From the NCBI RefSeq assembly GCF_007904085.1, contig NZ_CP042326.1, positions 1,116,001 to 1,180,000 on the forward strand: a DNA stretch of 64,000 bases. The letters are read 5' to 3'. This document shows positions 43,662 through 62,501 of this stretch, piece by piece. The translations under genes were made by a program, and so were the position numbers. Position 1 is the first letter of the stretch. Each line of letters begins with the position of its first letter. The DNA is from Euhalothece natronophila Z-M001 (GTDB lineage: Bacteria; Cyanobacteriota; Cyanobacteriia; Cyanobacteriales; Rubidibacteraceae). The notes beneath the pieces were generated by a model. It was not told where the DNA came from and made no database searches. It saw only the letters and a list, made by a program, of their open reading frames with translations.

Positions 43662-45163
<1,502 letters not shown>

Positions 45164-45170
45164 AAAAGGA

Positions 45171-45230
45171 GACCTTTCTAGAGTCAGCTCTGAAAAAGAA
45201 GTAAGAGAGACATCTAGCACTCCTAAGGTC
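45171..45230 (+). other. 16S-23S spacer D1-D1' helix
   Basis: Basal stem GACCT (45171-45175) / AGGTC (45226-45230), the conserved D1-D1' helix of cyanobacterial ribosomal spacers. Its loop sequence is useful for species identification. Confidence 0.75.
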
Positions 45231-45264
45231 GGTCGTGGAAGGCTTTTCCATCTAGGTTTGGAAG

Positions 45265-45338
<74 letters not shown>

Positions 45339-45342
45339 TAGC

Positions 45343-45415
45343 GGGGGTATAGCTCAGCTGGTAGAGCACCTGCCTTGCACGCAGGGAGTCAGCGGTTCGA
45401 GTCCGCTTACCTCCA
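45343..45415 (+). tRNA. tRNA-Ala (TGC)
   Basis: 73 bases with acceptor GGGGGTA / TACCTCC, which carries the G3:U70 wobble pair that identifies alanine tRNA, anticodon TGC in CTTGCAC, and a standard T arm. Only four bases separate it from tRNA-Ile, so both are processed from the rRNA precursor. Confidence 0.96.
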
Positions 45416-45424
45416 TGCAAGCTT

Positions 45425-45490
45425 CAGCACTGTTGACTGCTCAACAACTGCTGGACGCTTGTCCAGACCAGAACCTTGAAAACTGCATAG
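45425..45490 (+). other. spacer box B helix and box A antiterminator
   Basis: A helix with arms CAGCA (45425-45429) / TGCTG (45449-45453) is the box B, and GAACCTTGAAAACTGCATAG at 45471-45490 is the box A region preceding the 23S. Together they are the rRNA antitermination site in cyanobacterial spacers. Confidence 0.7.
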
Positions 45491-45515
45491 TCACCAAGAC
45501 ACAAATCAAGACCGA

Positions 45516-48400
<2,885 letters not shown>

Positions 48401-55985: not shown

Positions 55986-56510
55986 ATGAAGAAAATAATC
56001 CCCATGCTTAAACTTCGTTCTATCCTTTCCTTAATTCTTGTTATTACAATTTTCTTGTTAACGCCTGCTTGCAGTAATAATGAGCCTACTTCTCGCTTTG
56101 AAGGCGCACAACAAGAAAGTACCCAGCCCCAAGCTACAGCAGTTGCTGAAGATGCGGTTAAGGGAGGAGAACTTAATCGCTATTTTCCCAAAACTGAAGA
56201 TTCCTACCAAATTATTTACACGCAAGAAAAACGAGGATTTGCTCAAGCAAAATTAAAAGAAGATGGAGAAGAGTTAGCCTTACTTTCAATTTCTGATATT
56301 GCAAATAATCCCAGTGCTAGCAATAAATTTAAGGATAGCTCTGAGATGATTAAAGGTTATCCTGTTGTTAATCAAGGAAGTAAAGCCAGTGCTGTTTTAG
56401 TGCGCGATCGTTATCAAGTTAAAATTATTTCTCGTAGCGATCAATTTAATGAAGAGTCTCGTAAGGAATGGCTAGCTCAGTTTGATTTAGATACTTTAGC
56501 ACAGCTTTAA
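55986..56510 (+). CDS. predicted lipoprotein
   Basis: 174 residues with a signal peptide ending LTPACSNN (lipobox T-P-A-C) and a mature domain SRFEGAQQESTQ, then RYFPKTEDSYQIIYTQEKRG and a Ser/Asp-rich core. It resembles small cyanobacterial lipoproteins of unknown role. An upstream in-frame ATG is the only start. It is followed by an intergenic heptamer-repeat region. Confidence 0.72.
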   Translation: MKKIIPMLKLRSILSLILVITIFLLTPACSNNEPTSRFEGAQQESTQPQATAVAEDAVKGGELNRYFPKTEDSYQIIYTQEKRGFAQAKLKEDGEELALLSISDIANNPSASNKFKDSSEMIKGYPVVNQGSKASAVLVRDRYQVKIISRSDQFNEESRKEWLAQFDLDTLAQL

Positions 56511-56540
56511 ATTAAGTATAGCGTTTCTTAGTCTGTATTG

Positions 56541-56595
56541 GTTATTAGTCATTAGTCATTGGTTTACAAACAACAAAGGACGAAGGACAAAGGAC
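56541..56595. repeat. heptanucleotide repeats in intergenic DNA
   Basis: GTTATTA GTCATTA GTCATTG, then after a short gap AAAGGAC GAAGGAC AAAGGAC. Both runs have a 7-base period. A TATAGCGTTT at 56517-56526 just upstream resembles the terminal repeat of the element at 2006-2097. Confidence 0.6.
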
Positions 56596-56718
56596 TAATA
56601 CCTCTTTTATTAATTTACTATTTTTTGACTCATAATATTTTTTTGTGATCTTATTCGACGTTTTGAAAAATTTAGGGTAAGACTAGAGTAATCCCAGAAT
56701 TACAACAAATAAAGTATT

Positions 56719-59103
56719 ATGACACAACTTCCTCAAGAGTGCTCACAGTTATCTGAAAAAGTCAACCAAATATTAGAGTTATTACGACAAGAAAACACGC
56801 TTTACCCTAAACCCAATACTAGCGCAGTGGAAGCTGACTTAAGAAAGGTGGTTGCGCCGAAATTCTACATTGTCTTTGCTGGGGCGTTTAGTGCGGGAAA
56901 GTCAATGTTAATTAATGCACTGTTAGAGCGAGAGTTACTTTATAGTGCAGAAGGACACGCCACGGGAACAGAATGTTCCATTGAATATGCAGAAGCAGAA
57001 GAAGAACGAGTTATCATAACCTTTTTATCTCAAGCAGAAATTGTAGAGCAAGCAGCGTTTCTTTGTTCAAGTTTGGGGTTAAATTCTCCTAGCGATCTTG
57101 ATGATGTAGATTCTATGAATGCTCTCTACAAAAGCTGTAGTGAGATTATCCAACAAGAAGGGGGAGAAGGACGTTCTGAACGTGCAAAACAAGCTAGGGC
57201 TTTATCTCTCTTAATTGAAGGATATCAGAAAAATCACGATCACATTGGGCAAACTGAAAATAGAACTTATCCCATGCGAGAATTTAATTTTGATAACTTG
57301 ACAGAAGCAGCAGATTATGCCCGCCGTGGAAGTAATAGTGCAGTTTTAAAACGGTTGGAATATTACTGTCATCATCCTTTGTTAGCAGATGGAAATGTCA
57401 TTATTGATACCCCCGGTATTGATGCACCTGTAGAGCGCGATCGCGCTTTGACTTACGATAAAATTAAAGACCCTGATACTTCGGCGGTGGTTTGTGTTTT
57501 AAAGCCTGCTGCGGCTGGGGAAATGACTACAGAAGAAACAGAACTATTAGAGTTAATTAAAAGTAATCCAGGGGTGCGCGATCGCGTTTTTTATGTCTTT
57601 AATCGTATTGATGAAACGTGGTATAATGCTCAATTGCGTCAACGGTTAGAAGAACTGGTTTCCGAACAATTTTGGGACAGCGATCGCGTTTATCAAACCA
57701 GTGCTTTATTAGGATTTTATGGGAGTCAAGTTAGAAAAACCAGTGAGCGCGATCGATTTGGTTTAGACTCCATTTTTGCTGACAGCATGAAAACCTTAGG
57801 GGGAGAAGAAAACACGCCCCAATTTGTCAGTGAATTTAACAACTATTGTGGCAACTCAGGGAAATTAGCAAACACCATCTTTCGGGTTTATCTCGACAGT
57901 CATGAAACCCCCAACCAAAACTATGTTCGCATCTTAAACCAATGGGGAAACCCCTTAATTAATCAACTGATTCAAGATAGTGGAATTGAGGAATTTCGCA
58001 CCGCCATTACCCGTTATCTCACCGAAGAAAAACGCCCCCAACTCTTTATCACTCTTGCTGATGACTTAGAAGAAATTTGTATTCAGCTTAGTCAACATTG
58101 GACAGCCAATTATCGGGAATTAATCAACCAACCCCAAGAAATTGAGTCCATGAAAAACCAAGAGTTACAACAACTCAATCAGCAATTAAAAGCAGTGGGG
58201 GAACAATTCCGTCAGCATCTTTCTGAAGAAGTTAACCAAGTCATTATTAATGAAGATAACGCCTTTGAAGCCGACTTTAATAAATTGCAAGCACGAATGG
58301 TAAGCCGCCTCGATGAATTATTACAAACATTTTCCGTGCGAGATGCTTACAGTCGAGCCACCTATAATCATCCCCAAAATTCTACCGCCCCCTTAATTGC
58401 TGTCTTAGTTGAGGCTTTATACTATCTCGCCAATGAGTTAGAAAAAGTCTTAGAAGAAAGTGCCCAATTAATCATCGAAAACTACTGTCAACGGTTACTA
58501 GATAAACTCCGTCATCAAGAATATTATCGCCAGCTTTATCGTTTATTAGGAGATGATAGTGGAATTGAAAATGAACTAGAAACCATCAAGAATAACTTAA
58601 AAGTTGCCATGAAAAATGCTGCTCATACGGAATGTGATCGTTACGTGCGAGAAAGCCCTCGTTTTTATGATGAAGGAACATTCTCTATCTATCAATTTCG
58701 TCAAACTTTACAACAAACCTCTCAAAGTTATGATGCAGAAAGTATGGTAGAAGCTGAACCCTCAATTCGCCAACTTTTAAAGCTAGACTTTGAACCAAAA
58801 GTAGATAAAACCATTCGCAGTCATTTCCGCCAAACCATTAATAATACCTTGAAAAAGAATCTTTTACCCATGGCGGATCAGCAAGCGGAACACATTTTAC
58901 AGCAATATGAAAAAGCCCGTACTAATTTAGAGAAAACCCTCGAACAAGAAGCGGAAGCACGTATTGCCAAAAATCAGCGTTTACAAGCAGAAACTCTAGA
59001 GAAAGTTGAAAAGTATAATGAAGCGGTGAGAGCAATTAATTCCTGTTTGCAAGCGATGCAACTATACGATCATCAATTAAGTGACATTGTCTTCACCAGT
59101 TAA
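56719..59103 (+). CDS. dynamin-like GTPase
   Basis: 794-residue bacterial dynamin-like protein, expected to bind and remodel membranes. P-loop FAGAFSAGKSMLINALL (about residues 55-70) is the G1 motif, HATGTE is the switch I Thr, IIDTPGIDAP is G3 and FNRIDE is G4. The rest is long helical stalk with coiled coils (for example LEKTLEQEAEARIAKNQRLQ at the C-terminus). No transmembrane helix is clear. Partner genes of typical dynamin pairs are absent; instead it is followed by an array of KGK genes on the same strand after a hairpin terminator. Confidence 0.9.
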   Translation: MTQLPQECSQLSEKVNQILELLRQENTLYPKPNTSAVEADLRKVVAPKFYIVFAGAFSAGKSMLINALLERELLYSAEGHATGTECSIEYAEAEEERVIITFLSQAEIVEQAAFLCSSLGLNSPSDLDDVDSMNALYKSCSEIIQQEGGEGRSERAKQARALSLLIEGYQKNHDHIGQTENRTYPMREFNFDNLTEAADYARRGSNSAVLKRLEYYCHHPLLADGNVIIDTPGIDAPVERDRALTYDKIKDPDTSAVVCVLKPAAAGEMTTEETELLELIKSNPGVRDRVFYVFNRIDETWYNAQLRQRLEELVSEQFWDSDRVYQTSALLGFYGSQVRKTSERDRFGLDSIFADSMKTLGGEENTPQFVSEFNNYCGNSGKLANTIFRVYLDSHETPNQNYVRILNQWGNPLINQLIQDSGIEEFRTAITRYLTEEKRPQLFITLADDLEEICIQLSQHWTANYRELINQPQEIESMKNQELQQLNQQLKAVGEQFRQHLSEEVNQVIINEDNAFEADFNKLQARMVSRLDELLQTFSVRDAYSRATYNHPQNSTAPLIAVLVEALYYLANELEKVLEESAQLIIENYCQRLLDKLRHQEYYRQLYRLLGDDSGIENELETIKNNLKVAMKNAAHTECDRYVRESPRFYDEGTFSIYQFRQTLQQTSQSYDAESMVEAEPSIRQLLKLDFEPKVDKTIRSHFRQTINNTLKKNLLPMADQQAEHILQQYEKARTNLEKTLEQEAEARIAKNQRLQAETLEKVEKYNEAVRAINSCLQAMQLYDHQLSDIVFTS

Positions 59104-59114
59104 TCTACATTTTT

Positions 59115-59139
59115 GAGGTGGGTAACATTTACCCATCTC
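59115..59139 (+). terminator. hairpin terminator candidate after the dynamin gene
   Basis: 11-bp stem GAGGTGGGTAA / TTACCCATCTC with one G-T pair and a 3-base loop, followed by a short T-rich stretch. It separates the GTPase gene from the KGK array, though read-through is possible because the T tract is weak. A TATATT at 59144-59149 could be a -10 box for the array. Confidence 0.5.
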
Positions 59140-59181
59140 TTGTTATATTGGATAATTGCAAATGAGGAGATAAGAGTAAGA

Positions 59182-59505
59182 ATGACTAACCCAAATAATT
59201 TTCTAGATAATCATGATGTTGTTCATATTAAAAATGATCGCTTTGATTTTGATAAAACGACTAAACTAGAGCAAATTAAAAAGAAAATGAATAACTGGAT
59301 TAGGGAACGTTTTCAAAAGGAAATAAATCAATCTATATCTATATTTCCAGATTTTATTAATAATTGTGAAGTATTAAAACAGGATGGTAAAGGATGGAGG
59401 AAAGGTAAAATAATCATTCGTTTTGAATTTATCCCTGATGATCCTGAACCAGAAGACGACATTCAAATAACTGATCAAAAATCTTTAGACGAGTTTCGCA
59501 AGTAA
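59182..59505 (+). CDS. KGK domain protein 1
   Basis: 107 residues with N-terminal FLDNHDVVHIK and C-terminal KGWRKGKIIIRFEFIPDDPE, the KGK-domain signature found in cyanobacterial proteins. The KGK family has no known function. The start is the ATG at 59182 (GAGGAG upstream at 59164-59169); a longer frame would run through the hairpin terminator. First of five related genes in tandem. Less similar to copies 2 and 3 than those are to each other. Confidence 0.72.
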   Translation: MTNPNNFLDNHDVVHIKNDRFDFDKTTKLEQIKKKMNNWIRERFQKEINQSISIFPDFINNCEVLKQDGKGWRKGKIIIRFEFIPDDPEPEDDIQITDQKSLDEFRK

Positions 59506-59544
59506 TCATTAGTTTCAGTAAATAATAAGGAGGATAACTTAAGT

Positions 59545-59922
59545 ATGCAAGAAGAAAACAATTTAAACAAAATTGAATGGCAAAATGATGATGTGATTGC
59601 TTTCTCAGAGCAAGATGTTATTAAAATGTCACAATTATTAGAAACCATGGAGATGTCAATTAAAGATTCTGAACTTGGAAGGACTTTTAGACAAAAGCTA
59701 GATCATAAAATTAGAATTAGTAAAAATTCAACAATTCCTATATCTAAAAGTAGCAATCAGTGGTTTGAACAGGGTGTAGAGTGTAAAATTCTGCGGGCTG
59801 AGAATACAAAAGGATGGCGTAAGGGAAAAATTCGTGTCAAACTAAACATTGAGTTTGAATTATGGGAAGAAACAGAAGAAGCAGACTCTCCTTTAGATAA
59901 TTTTCGTAATGAGGAATCATAA
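59545..59922 (+). CDS. KGK domain protein 2
   Basis: 125 residues. The N-terminal half (NKIEWQNDDVIAFSEQDVI) and the C-terminal KGK core (ECKILRAENTKGWRKGKIRV) are both present, ending SPLDNFRNEES. Its last 102 bases are almost identical to those of copy 3 (3 differences seen). AAGGAGG lies a few bases upstream of the ATG. Function unknown. Confidence 0.78.
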   Translation: MQEENNLNKIEWQNDDVIAFSEQDVIKMSQLLETMEMSIKDSELGRTFRQKLDHKIRISKNSTIPISKSSNQWFEQGVECKILRAENTKGWRKGKIRVKLNIEFELWEETEEADSPLDNFRNEES

Positions 59923-60002
59923 TCAGTGAAACCAATGAATAAACATCTAGAAACTTTACTAAATGTGTCCCGTAATTCAAATAGATTAGGAGATAAGTAA
60001 AA

Positions 60003-60380
60003 ATGGAAGAACAATATAGAAAAATTGAGTGGCAAGAAGATGATGTGATTGGCTTCTATGATGATCAAGTGAGAAAAGCTGATTCAACTTTAGAAAGCCT
60101 GAAAGAATCTATTCAATACAATAATTGGGGGCAAAATCTCAATGATAAATTTTCTCATAATCTCAGACTAAATAATATCAAAATAATACCTGGAGACAGT
60201 TTAAATCGTTTTTCTCAATGGTTTGAAGAGGGGGTAGATTGTGAAATTATGCGAGCTTATGATACAAAAGGCTGGCGCAGGGGAAAAATTCGTGTCAAAC
60301 TAAACATTGAGTTTGAATTATGGGAGGAAACAGAAGAAGCAGACTCTCCTTTAGATAATTTTCGTAATGGGGAATCATAA
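60003..60380 (+). CDS. KGK domain protein 3
   Basis: 125 residues, paralogue of copy 2. The N-terminus (RKIEWQEDDVIGFYDDQV) is only partly similar, while the last 34 codons match copy 2 nearly exactly. The core reads GWRRGK instead of GWRKGK. The gap before it (59923-60002) carries only leader sequence with AGGAGATAAG. Function unknown. Confidence 0.78.
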   Translation: MEEQYRKIEWQEDDVIGFYDDQVRKADSTLESLKESIQYNNWGQNLNDKFSHNLRLNNIKIIPGDSLNRFSQWFEEGVDCEIMRAYDTKGWRRGKIRVKLNIEFELWEETEEADSPLDNFRNGES

Positions 60381-60392
60381 GAGGTGAAAATA

Positions 60393-60725
60393 ATGAATCA
60401 AAATATAGAAACTTTAGAAGGTAAAGAAGTAATTTGCATGCCACCGCAGGGCTTAATTCAACATGATACTTTTATTAAGTCAGAGCAATTTCTAAAGGAA
60501 CTCCAATTAATTTTAACTAATCAAAGTAAAAACGCAATACCACCAAGACTTTTAAGTACATGGCTTTCAGAGGGAAGAGAGTGTGAAATGCTATCTCCTA
60601 ATCAAGACTGGAGAAAGGGAAAATTAAGAATCAAACTTGAACTAGAATTTATTCCCGATGAAGTTGAGACAGAAGAAAACATAGAAAGCCAAAATCATCA
60701 GTTTTTGAATAAATTTCGTCAATAA
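60393..60725 (+). CDS. KGK domain protein 4
   Basis: 110 residues from the ATG at 60393 (GAGGTG 6-11 bases upstream), with ECEMLSPNQDWRKGKLRIKL as KGK core and ELEFIPDEVETEEN following. It differs clearly from copies 2 and 3 outside the core. It starts 12 bases after copy 3, so it is co-transcribed with it. Confidence 0.76.
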   Translation: MNQNIETLEGKEVICMPPQGLIQHDTFIKSEQFLKELQLILTNQSKNAIPPRLLSTWLSEGRECEMLSPNQDWRKGKLRIKLELEFIPDEVETEENIESQNHQFLNKFRQ

Positions 60726-60783
60726 AGTAGGATCGGTTAATCAAGTATATAGAATTAAAAGGAGTTAATAGAGTAGCATAAAT

Positions 60784-61101
60784 ATGAATAATAAATATAT
60801 ACAGCTAAATCGACAAGATGTAATTTCTACTCAAGATAAACAGAGATCACTTTTGAATAAAACTTTTACGGTTGAAGAATTTCTTCAACTACTAACAAAA
60901 ATAATTTCTGAGAAAGTTTCTAGCTGGAAGAATCCCGAAGGGAGAGAAAAAGAAGCCAAAAAATGGACAGAAGAAGGAATTAACTGTAAAGTTTTATCGC
61001 CTCAAAGTCATTGGAAAACAGGTAAAGTCAGAATCACGCTGGAATTTATCCCCGATGAACCAGAATCACCTTTAGACAATGTGAGAAATCAGCAATCATG
61101 A
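60784..61101 (+). CDS. KGK domain protein 5
   Basis: 105 residues. The core is SHWKTGKVRITLEFIPDEPE, so the K-G-K triplet becomes T-G-K. It ends SPLDNVRNQQS, as copies 2 and 3 do (SPLDNFRN). The stop codon overlaps the HNH gene start by 4 bases (ATGA), coupling the array to the nuclease. Confidence 0.75.
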   Translation: MNNKYIQLNRQDVISTQDKQRSLLNKTFTVEEFLQLLTKIISEKVSSWKNPEGREKEAKKWTEEGINCKVLSPQSHWKTGKVRITLEFIPDEPESPLDNVRNQQS

Positions 61102-61358
61102 AGAAGAAACGCTTTCAAAAAGCAACCTCGCGAATTGTCATTCCCCCAGAAGTGAGAGAGTATGTTTTCCAACGAGATAATTACCAATGTCGAAGCTGTG
61201 GAAAGAAGCAAACTCAAACTGCATTAGAAGTGGATCATATTATTCCCATCGCTAACGGTGGATCAAATGATATTAGTAACTTACAAACGTTATGTCGTCG
61301 CTGTAATAACCAAAAAAAACACCATTTTGATCAGCGTTTTCGCCGTCGCTTTTCTTAG
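61098..61358 (+). CDS. HNH endonuclease
   Basis: 86-residue stand-alone HNH nuclease: CRSCGKKQTQTALEVDHIIP, then GGSNDISNLQTLCRRCNNQK. The two zinc Cys pairs and the catalytic DH-N-N pattern are intact. Similar small HNH proteins exist in phages, restriction systems and mobile elements. It begins inside the stop of KGK gene 5, which makes this nuclease part of the same operon. Confidence 0.9.
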   Translation: MKKKRFQKATSRIVIPPEVREYVFQRDNYQCRSCGKKQTQTALEVDHIIPIANGGSNDISNLQTLCRRCNNQKKHHFDQRFRRRFS

Positions 61359-61427
61359 TAATTAAAATTCAATTGCAGAAATTTTATATTAAATTAATAA
61401 AAAGTAGTTTTCTTAGGACTTGATATA

Positions 61428-62501
61428 ATGAAGCGACTACATACTGATTTAGTTGATCCTGATGATATTTCCCGTCCCAATGGTCAATTTTTAGGATTTC
61501 CTTATTCTCTTGAAGAGTCTCAATTTGTATTTTTTCCTGTTCCTTGGGATGTTACTACTTCTTATGGCGGGGGAACAGTTAACGGTGCCCAAGCGATTAT
61601 TGATGCTTCTGTACAACTAGAACCCACAGATTATCATGTTGCTGAAGCCTGGAAAATTGGTCATTATACTATTCCTATTTCTGAAGTAATTAAAGCTAAA
61701 AATAAGCAAATGAGAAGTATTGCTAAAACAGTAATTACTTATCAGGAAGAGGGGAAATCTTATCAAGATTCTAAAATTCAATCAGAATTAAAAACTGTTA
61801 ACGATGCTTGTGAAGAACTGAATCATTGGGTATATAATCAAACCAAAGCTCTATTACACCAGAATAAACTAATTGGCTTAATTGGCGGCGATCATAGTGT
61901 TCCCTATGGTTATATAAAAGCACTAACTGAACATTATGGAGAGTATGGAATTTTACAAATTGATGCTCATGCTGATTTGAGAAAGGCTTATGAAGGGTTT
62001 ACTTATTCTCATGCCTCCATTATGCACAATGTATTAAAGCTGCCAGAAATTTCCCATTTAATTCAAGTGGGATTAAGAGATTTTTCTCAGGGAGAAAGAG
62101 AGCAAGCAGATCAAGATCAGCGAGTCACTTGGTTCACTGATTGGGAAATCAAAGATAAAGCCTATCAGGGCTATTTGTGGTCAAATCAATGTCAGGAAAT
62201 TATTAATTGTTTACCCGAGCAAGTTTATATTAGCTTTGATATTGATGGGTTAAACCCTCATTTTTGTCCTAATACTGGAACTCCTGTTCCAGGAGGGTTA
62301 GACTTTAATCAAGTCATTTACTTGATCATCGCTTTAGTGAAAGCTGGAAAAAGAGTTATTGGTTTTGATTTATGTGAAGTCTCTCCTAATTTGAATAATC
62401 TTGAGGATGAATGGGATGGAAATGTGGGTGCTAGAGTTGCTTATAAGTTGGCAAATTTGATGTTTGCATCTCAGGATTACTCATTGGCGCTTTCCCATTA
62501 A
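61428..62501 (+). CDS. ureohydrolase (arginase/agmatinase/guanidine hydrolase family)
   Basis: 357-residue metal-dependent amidinohydrolase. Metal ligands are in GGDHSVPYG, DAHADLR and SFDIDGLNPHF; the loop after these reads CPNTGTPVPGG. Cyanobacterial members act on agmatine, arginine or guanidine (Sll1077 is a guanidine hydrolase), so the substrate cannot be called from sequence. It has a long N-terminal region (FFPVPWDVTTSYGGGTVNGA). Its last codons and stop come from the repeat at 62486-62545, so the natural C-terminus may have been changed by insertion. Confidence 0.85.
   Translation: MKRLHTDLVDPDDISRPNGQFLGFPYSLEESQFVFFPVPWDVTTSYGGGTVNGAQAIIDASVQLEPTDYHVAEAWKIGHYTIPISEVIKAKNKQMRSIAKTVITYQEEGKSYQDSKIQSELKTVNDACEELNHWVYNQTKALLHQNKLIGLIGGDHSVPYGYIKALTEHYGEYGILQIDAHADLRKAYEGFTYSHASIMHNVLKLPEISHLIQVGLRDFSQGEREQADQDQRVTWFTDWEIKDKAYQGYLWSNQCQEIINCLPEQVYISFDIDGLNPHFCPNTGTPVPGGLDFNQVIYLIIALVKAGKRVIGFDLCEVSPNLNNLEDEWDGNVGARVAYKLANLMFASQDYSLALSH

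Follow-up and report, generated by a model that had tools for sequence, protein, structure and literature searches.

Does the row of genes that encodes, in Euhalothece natronophila Z-M001, a dynamin-like GTPase, five KGK-domain proteins and a small HNH nuclease-like protein result from a local accident, or is it one instance of a cyanobacterial module whose parts would act together? In the window, by which we mean the whole stretch of 64,000 nucleotides that was analysed, open reading frames and Pfam matches define the following order on the + strand. The dynamin-like protein (DLP), a homologue of SynDLP (Slr0869), is encoded at 56719..59103 (794 residues; Dynamin_N, 58 bits) and is followed in tandem by KGK gene 1 at 59182..59505 (107 residues; PF08872, 39.7 bits), gene 2 at 59545..59922 (125 residues; 82.1 bits), gene 3 at 60003..60380 (125 residues; 70.5 bits), gene 4 at 60393..60725 (110 residues; 55.8 bits) and gene 5 at 60784..61101 (105 residues; 52.1 bits), and finally by the gene of the HNH nuclease-like protein, the third component, at 61098..61358 (86 residues; HNH_5, 78.5 bits). 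The KGK starts are the ATG codons at 59182, 59545, 60003, 60393 and 60784; longer frames would begin at a TTG for gene 1 and at a GTG for gene 4. All five products exceed the Pfam cut-off of 25.6 bits for PF08872 (KGK), and a search of the whole source genome at E ≤ 0.001 yields no further KGK match. The successive gaps from the DLP gene through the five KGK genes to the HNH gene, calculated from the coordinates, are 78, 39, 80, 12, 58 and -4 bases, the last being the ATGA shared by KGK gene 5 and the HNH gene; the frame coordinates and the Pfam cut-offs thus bear out the gene array, the four-base overlap and the domains described in the first-pass annotation. Upstream of the DLP gene, the frame at 55986-56510 looks by eye like that of a lipoprotein, and its product has no Pfam match at E ≤ 1 and no match among the frames of loci L001-L067. 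The G+C content of the window rises to about 0.55 at 44001-48000, against 0.34-0.45 in the remaining 2-kb steps.

The DLP passes the Pfam cut-offs of Dynamin_N and MMR_HSR1 and carries the P-loop, G3 and G4 motifs, from which a GTPase function is predicted. Its residues 2-785 align with residues 2-786 of Slr0869/SynDLP (PDB 7zw6) at 1064 bits, that is, over nearly the full length, and its C8 and C776 align with C8 and C777 of SynDLP, both cysteines of the pair being also present in 23 of 32 other DLPs. According to passages of two earlier papers, one clade of cyanobacterial DLPs, the "KGK clade", has KGK genes downstream (PMC5827413; PMC10104851), and the link between DLP and KGK was therefore already known. 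By its homology, its downstream KGK genes and its cysteine pair, the window DLP is, as judged from its sequence, a DLP of this clade. The locus shares with that of SynDLP (Slr0869, Synechocystis PCC 6803) the near full-length DLP homology, the C8/C777 pair and the downstream KGK, and differs from the published description by its five KGK genes and its linked HNH gene; Synechocystis PCC 6803 itself seems to lie outside the genomes searched, in which the best SynDLP match reaches 76%. The structure of SynDLP is solved; passages of the same papers leave its cellular role for future study (PMC5827413; PMC10104851), and its gene is described as apparently non-essential under standard growth (PMC10104851). 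The earlier statement that nothing is known of KGK proteins was too strong in view of this published clade, and it holds for their function, which passages of both papers call enigmatic (PMC5827413; PMC10104851). Two loci deserve mention here: in a congener (L061:6864-9347) the DLP frame is interrupted by an in-frame stop, the KGK and HNH frames of that locus being open, and a contig labelled as a Chloroflexaceae MAG (L064) carries the arrangement DLP-KGK-KGK with a DLP of 64% identity, perhaps through contamination from cyanobacteria or transfer.

The HNH protein is above the Pfam cut-offs for HNH_5, HNH and HNH_4. All 42 homologues keep its residues R12, C31, C34, D46, N61, C66, C69 and N70, and 41 of them keep H47; the motif ends in N instead of H, and the metal cysteines and core residues are present. 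Since these core residues are kept in the homologues, an HNH activity is plausible. Searched against 60 genomes, the protein has 38 matches with scores of at least 99 bits, the next match being at 68, and the HNH partner is, by this sequence measure, a distinct family of about 85 residues. An assignment to the IscB RNA-guided nucleases was rejected, the match reaching 70.5 bits against an NCBIfam equivalog cut-off of 175 and covering residues 18-81 only. Among the best 80 of 201 viral HNH relatives, the closest shows 54% identity over residues 15-73, and none spans all 86 residues.

The HNH gene accompanies the DLP gene far beyond this genome. In 291 genomes of the source order, with presence set at E ≤ 1e-100 for DLP and E ≤ 1e-23 for HNH, both are found in 166, DLP only in 24, HNH only in 14 and neither in 87 (Fisher p 1.8e-36, a test that ignores relatedness). 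Within families, in a set of 60 genomes that overlaps the 291 and is not independent of them, the presence of DLP varies in 10 families, and that of HNH runs parallel to it in 8 of these and does not vary in the other 2 (Cochran-Mantel-Haenszel p 2.5e-4, one family being nine genomes). The DLP and HNH genes thus tend to be jointly present or absent. Their positions are also linked: of 123 HNH places among the matches listed, 93 are downstream of the DLP gene in the same orientation, at 204-5138 bases (median 1216), and the remaining 30 are divided between another contig (15) and a distant site on the same contig (15); the count rests on the 122 genomes for which a DLP and an HNH place were both available and includes 8 DLP and 4 HNH places from the 60-genome searches. 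Of 33 named DLP loci with sufficient downstream sequence (37 less L055, L056, L063 and L065), 21 have an HNH gene there and 17 a KGK gene, 15 loci having both and 10 having neither.

The KGK genes complete this arrangement, a KGK gene being present within 6 kb downstream of the DLP in 34 of 41 DLP genomes, where the pieces of a split DLP gene were merged by their coordinates into a single place (G018, G024) and G026 is represented only by the DLP fragment next to its KGK genes. The first-pass annotation had taken KGK genes scattered without any link to DLP or HNH as the observation that would speak against a common system. The outcome is divided: of 122 KGK matches in the 60 genomes, 70 lie near DLP and/or HNH and 52 elsewhere, in a total to which two sub-threshold matches and the double count of a frame in G039 contribute, and in which certain contigs are fragments. 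The matches in short frames are distributed as 53 near both DLP and HNH, 12 near DLP only, 4 near HNH only and 34 elsewhere, and those in frames of at least 200 residues (19) as 1 near DLP and 18 elsewhere. Other neighbour families fall well short of this frequency, the commonest of those listed reaching 6 of 118 neighbours. Presence, position and KGK counts across genomes all indicate that the KGK-DLP-HNH link is recurrent and no local accident: time and again, the same strand carries first the gene of a SynDLP-type DLP, then at least one KGK gene and then the gene of a specific small HNH protein. We found no report of the DLP-HNH link in the openly accessible literature, which takes in few subscription journals, and the main texts of PMC5827413 and PMC10104851, supplements apart, contain no words starting with 'HNH' or 'nuclease', a pattern that leaves 'endonuclease' aside. 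What appears to be new here is the HNH protein as recurrent third partner.

The junction between the last KGK gene and the HNH gene raises the possibility that these two form an antitoxin-toxin or immunity-nuclease pair which is simply attached to the dynamin. The gene order and the overlap fit such a pair, and, among 37 distinct junctions, 22 have no more than 30 nt between the KGK stop and the HNH start, the two genes overlapping in 13, and 12 have more than 100 nt, values that are approximate singly, the HNH starts being picked by rule and the loci by their KGK or DLP matches. The opposite mean charge of the partners fits as well, the median pI being 5.0 for KGK (89 rows, some genomes twice) and 9.5 for HNH (43 rows), and so do the loci L104, L105, L106 and L109, where a KGK gene adjoins the HNH gene with no DLP beside them. 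Colicins of the E type combine an HNH nuclease with an acidic immunity protein, a small basic HNH standing beside an acidic partner, and in the window, too, KGK proteins that are small and mostly acidic are encoded next to a small basic HNH protein; the locus differs from the colicins in that the module is chromosomal and that HNH can occur without KGK. Indeed, G017, G045 and G020 have an HNH homologue without any KGK match (E ≤ 0.001), and G016, G018, G026, G032 and G057 have KGK at the DLP with the HNH homologue absent. In view of this occurrence of each partner without the other we reject a strict toxin-antitoxin pair, and an antitoxin-toxin or immunity-nuclease pairing is in our judgement very unlikely. 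The acidity of KGK proteins may just reflect general composition, and the product of window gene 5 is basic (pI 8.7). At L088:1345-2847 on the - strand (the locus also numbered L013), a 501-residue frame with several KGK-like repeats adjoins an HNH-family gene.

How did five KGK genes come to stand in one row? Array size in the 41 DLP genomes is 0 in 7, 1 in 15, 2 in 11, 3 in 5, 4 in 2 and 5 in 1, so that the window has the largest array among them. In the KGK tree, from which L018, a copy of the window locus, was omitted as it was from the junction counts, window gene 1 clusters with the gene that opens the array in L024 and in L061, gene 3 pairs with gene 2 of the congener L061 and is joined by window gene 2, and window genes 4 and 5 cluster with genes 3 and 4 of L061, the support for the window groupings being 82-100. 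The array resembles, on these groupings, the congener's four KGK genes plus one duplicate. The DNA identity between window genes 2 and 3 is 54% over codons 1-70 against 96-97% over codons 91-125, a difference along the genes that suggests sequence exchange between copies. We rejected the idea of position-specific KGK subfamilies, the tree having little resolution (stars on 14 of its 82 inner branches) and requiring 19 changes between first and last position (raw count); the order shared with the congener L061 appears as the sole part of the position pattern that stands out, and does so fairly clearly.

As a family, the KGK proteins are conserved in few places. An alignment of 32 of them leaves one W and one L invariant, in the W-(K/R)-x-G-K region and in the C-terminal S-P-L-D-D-like tail, and 78 of 89 rows have an LDx(hydrophobic)(R/K) motif close to the C-terminus; certain genomes are present twice in the rows from L001-L067 (for example L003/L040, L017/L057 and L023/L066), and L018 stands in for the window in the KGK and HNH identity, pI, tail and dN/dS figures. 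AlphaFold2 gave two KGK models with mean pLDDT of 77.2 and 83.9, the latter being gene 5. Foldseek found no match to either model in the PDB at E ≤ 0.001 and none to the second model (pLDDT 83.9) among viral structures at the same threshold; with VIA-align 2 the first model has no chain at Z ≥ 2 and the second a best Z of 2.9. The structure matches of these predicted models would indicate neither a function nor a new fold. Long proteins encoded at L072-L087 and L091 begin with a KGK domain and continue into an acidic tail that often consists of repeats; many of these proteins end in a D-V-W-x-(D/E)-M-like motif. At L103:4960-7287 a KGK gene stands beside AAA-ATPase-like and small Ycf35-like frames, both named by eye.

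The transcription of the locus bears on another alternative, in which a regulatory neighbourhood, such as a stress regulon, is all that the three genes share and their proteins act independently of one another. On the + strand at 59115..59139, 3' of the DLP stop, lies a hairpin of 11 pairs followed by TTGTTATATT, a possible terminator or attenuator that the first-pass annotation does not mention (-15.9 kcal/mol, z -3.25, an energy matched by 2 of 200 shuffles, for a site chosen after a scan). Terminator-like sites in 56400-61700 number 3, against 3.8 in shuffles, that is, without excess. Of 59 loci, 18, including the window and its congeners L024 and L061, reach a folding energy of -15 kcal/mol or below in the 50 nt past the DLP stop. 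The hairpin argues against one simple transcript across DLP, KGK and HNH, and because of its position KGK-HNH may be partly uncoupled from DLP. In a Synechocystis lexA mutant, slr0868-slr0871 rise 6.3- to 16-fold in two measurement sets, according to passages of PMC4759255; slr0869 is the SynDLP gene, and slr0868, slr0870 and slr0871 are known here by locus tag alone. The gel shifts in those passages concern other promoters, and they ascribe no SOS role to LexA (PMC4759255). In passages of another study, slr0869 is down in both triple sigma-factor mutants (PMC8875361). The possible terminator, the joint change of slr0868-slr0871 and the fact that the parts also occur separately would all suit a merely regulatory association; the joint presence and absence of DLP and HNH within families and the tight KGK-HNH junctions suggest instead a joint use, and we regard association by regulation only as doubtful.

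Could the module defend the cell against phages? The dynamin would then preserve membranes or delay lysis, the HNH protein would cut phage DNA and the diversified KGK proteins would sense or recruit. DynA of Bacillus subtilis, a bacterial dynamin with a membrane-protective role, delays phage lysis in passages of PMC8844932; the window DLP reaches only 36.2 bits with the DynA model, for a cut-off of 1600. Part of its GTPase region matches LeoBC/LeoA in PADLOC (best 2.7e-12, partial), and the HNH protein matches restriction-type models (best 4.8e-11, partial). Presence is patchy, at 3 of 6 genomes of the source genus, and between congeners the KGK proteins are less conserved (37-65% identity, the orthology of gene 5 with its L111 partner being doubtful) than DLP and HNH (75-82%). 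A few of 118 neighbours (the family analysis took 118 of 126) also match PADLOC models in raw counts, including LeoBC 1 (3e-116), LeoA 2 and the candidate PDC-S03 up to 3. A LeoA with adjacent LeoBC system was nevertheless rejected, the window locus offering partial matches of one protein, and the genes flanking the module, at 55986-56510 upstream and 61428-62501 downstream, giving no PADLOC match. The raw counts give no clear sign of a defence island among the 118 neighbours, whose commonest families, in the best 25 of 103, are ordinary ones: ABC transporter, Uma2 and response regulator, 6 each. For KGK, dN is below dS in 10 of 11 pairs (dS failed in one, and most dS exceed 1), and positive selection was rejected. 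A quick DLP tree of 33 rows is broadly taxonomic, with Nostocales, Planktothrix, Microcoleus and Spirulina groups and half of its inner branches starred, and DLP relatives were found neither in viral contigs (six exact peptide patterns, which detect close relatives) nor in plasmids (tblastn, E ≤ 1e-5). Because of this taxonomic tree and these empty viral and plasmid searches, defence is possible but unsupported; we consider it unlikely, and the reading of the locus as a conflict or immunity system, put forward in the first-pass annotation, has become weak in view of the same results and of the ordinary neighbours.

The reading that we favour, tentatively and at somewhat less than an even chance, is that of a stress-related module which would bring together a GTPase at the membrane, a DNA nuclease and, as adaptors, the small KGK proteins. 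The joint presence, the conserved positions and the tight junctions speak for it, as does the rise of slr0868-slr0871 in the lexA mutant; the genomes and loci that have one part without the others, the 52 KGK matches elsewhere and the hairpin speak against it. This three-part cyanobacterial module is apparently mostly vertical in its inheritance and often lost. The dynamin would act on the cell membranes under stress. The KGK proteins would be adaptors or regulators that can replace one another and that act on the dynamin, on the basic HNH protein or on both partners, and local duplication with sequence exchange between the copies would generate the arrays and thereby several adaptor versions. 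The HNH protein would cut or nick DNA and thus provide the DNA-directed output of the module. Owing to the hairpin, DLP and KGK-HNH may be produced from partly separate transcripts. A bolder form of the same model, to which we give a low probability, would have KGK couple the membrane dynamin to the DNA nuclease, so that membrane damage or the entry of DNA, from phage or another source, would lead to DNA cutting, the array setting the signals or the partners.

In conclusion, the recurrence of the HNH protein as third partner makes a joint role of these proteins in stress or defence testable, and it provides a concrete and cheap lead: DLP, KGK and HNH should be studied together, and not the dynamin alone. 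If true, the coupling would join membrane remodelling with DNA cutting in photosynthetic bacteria.
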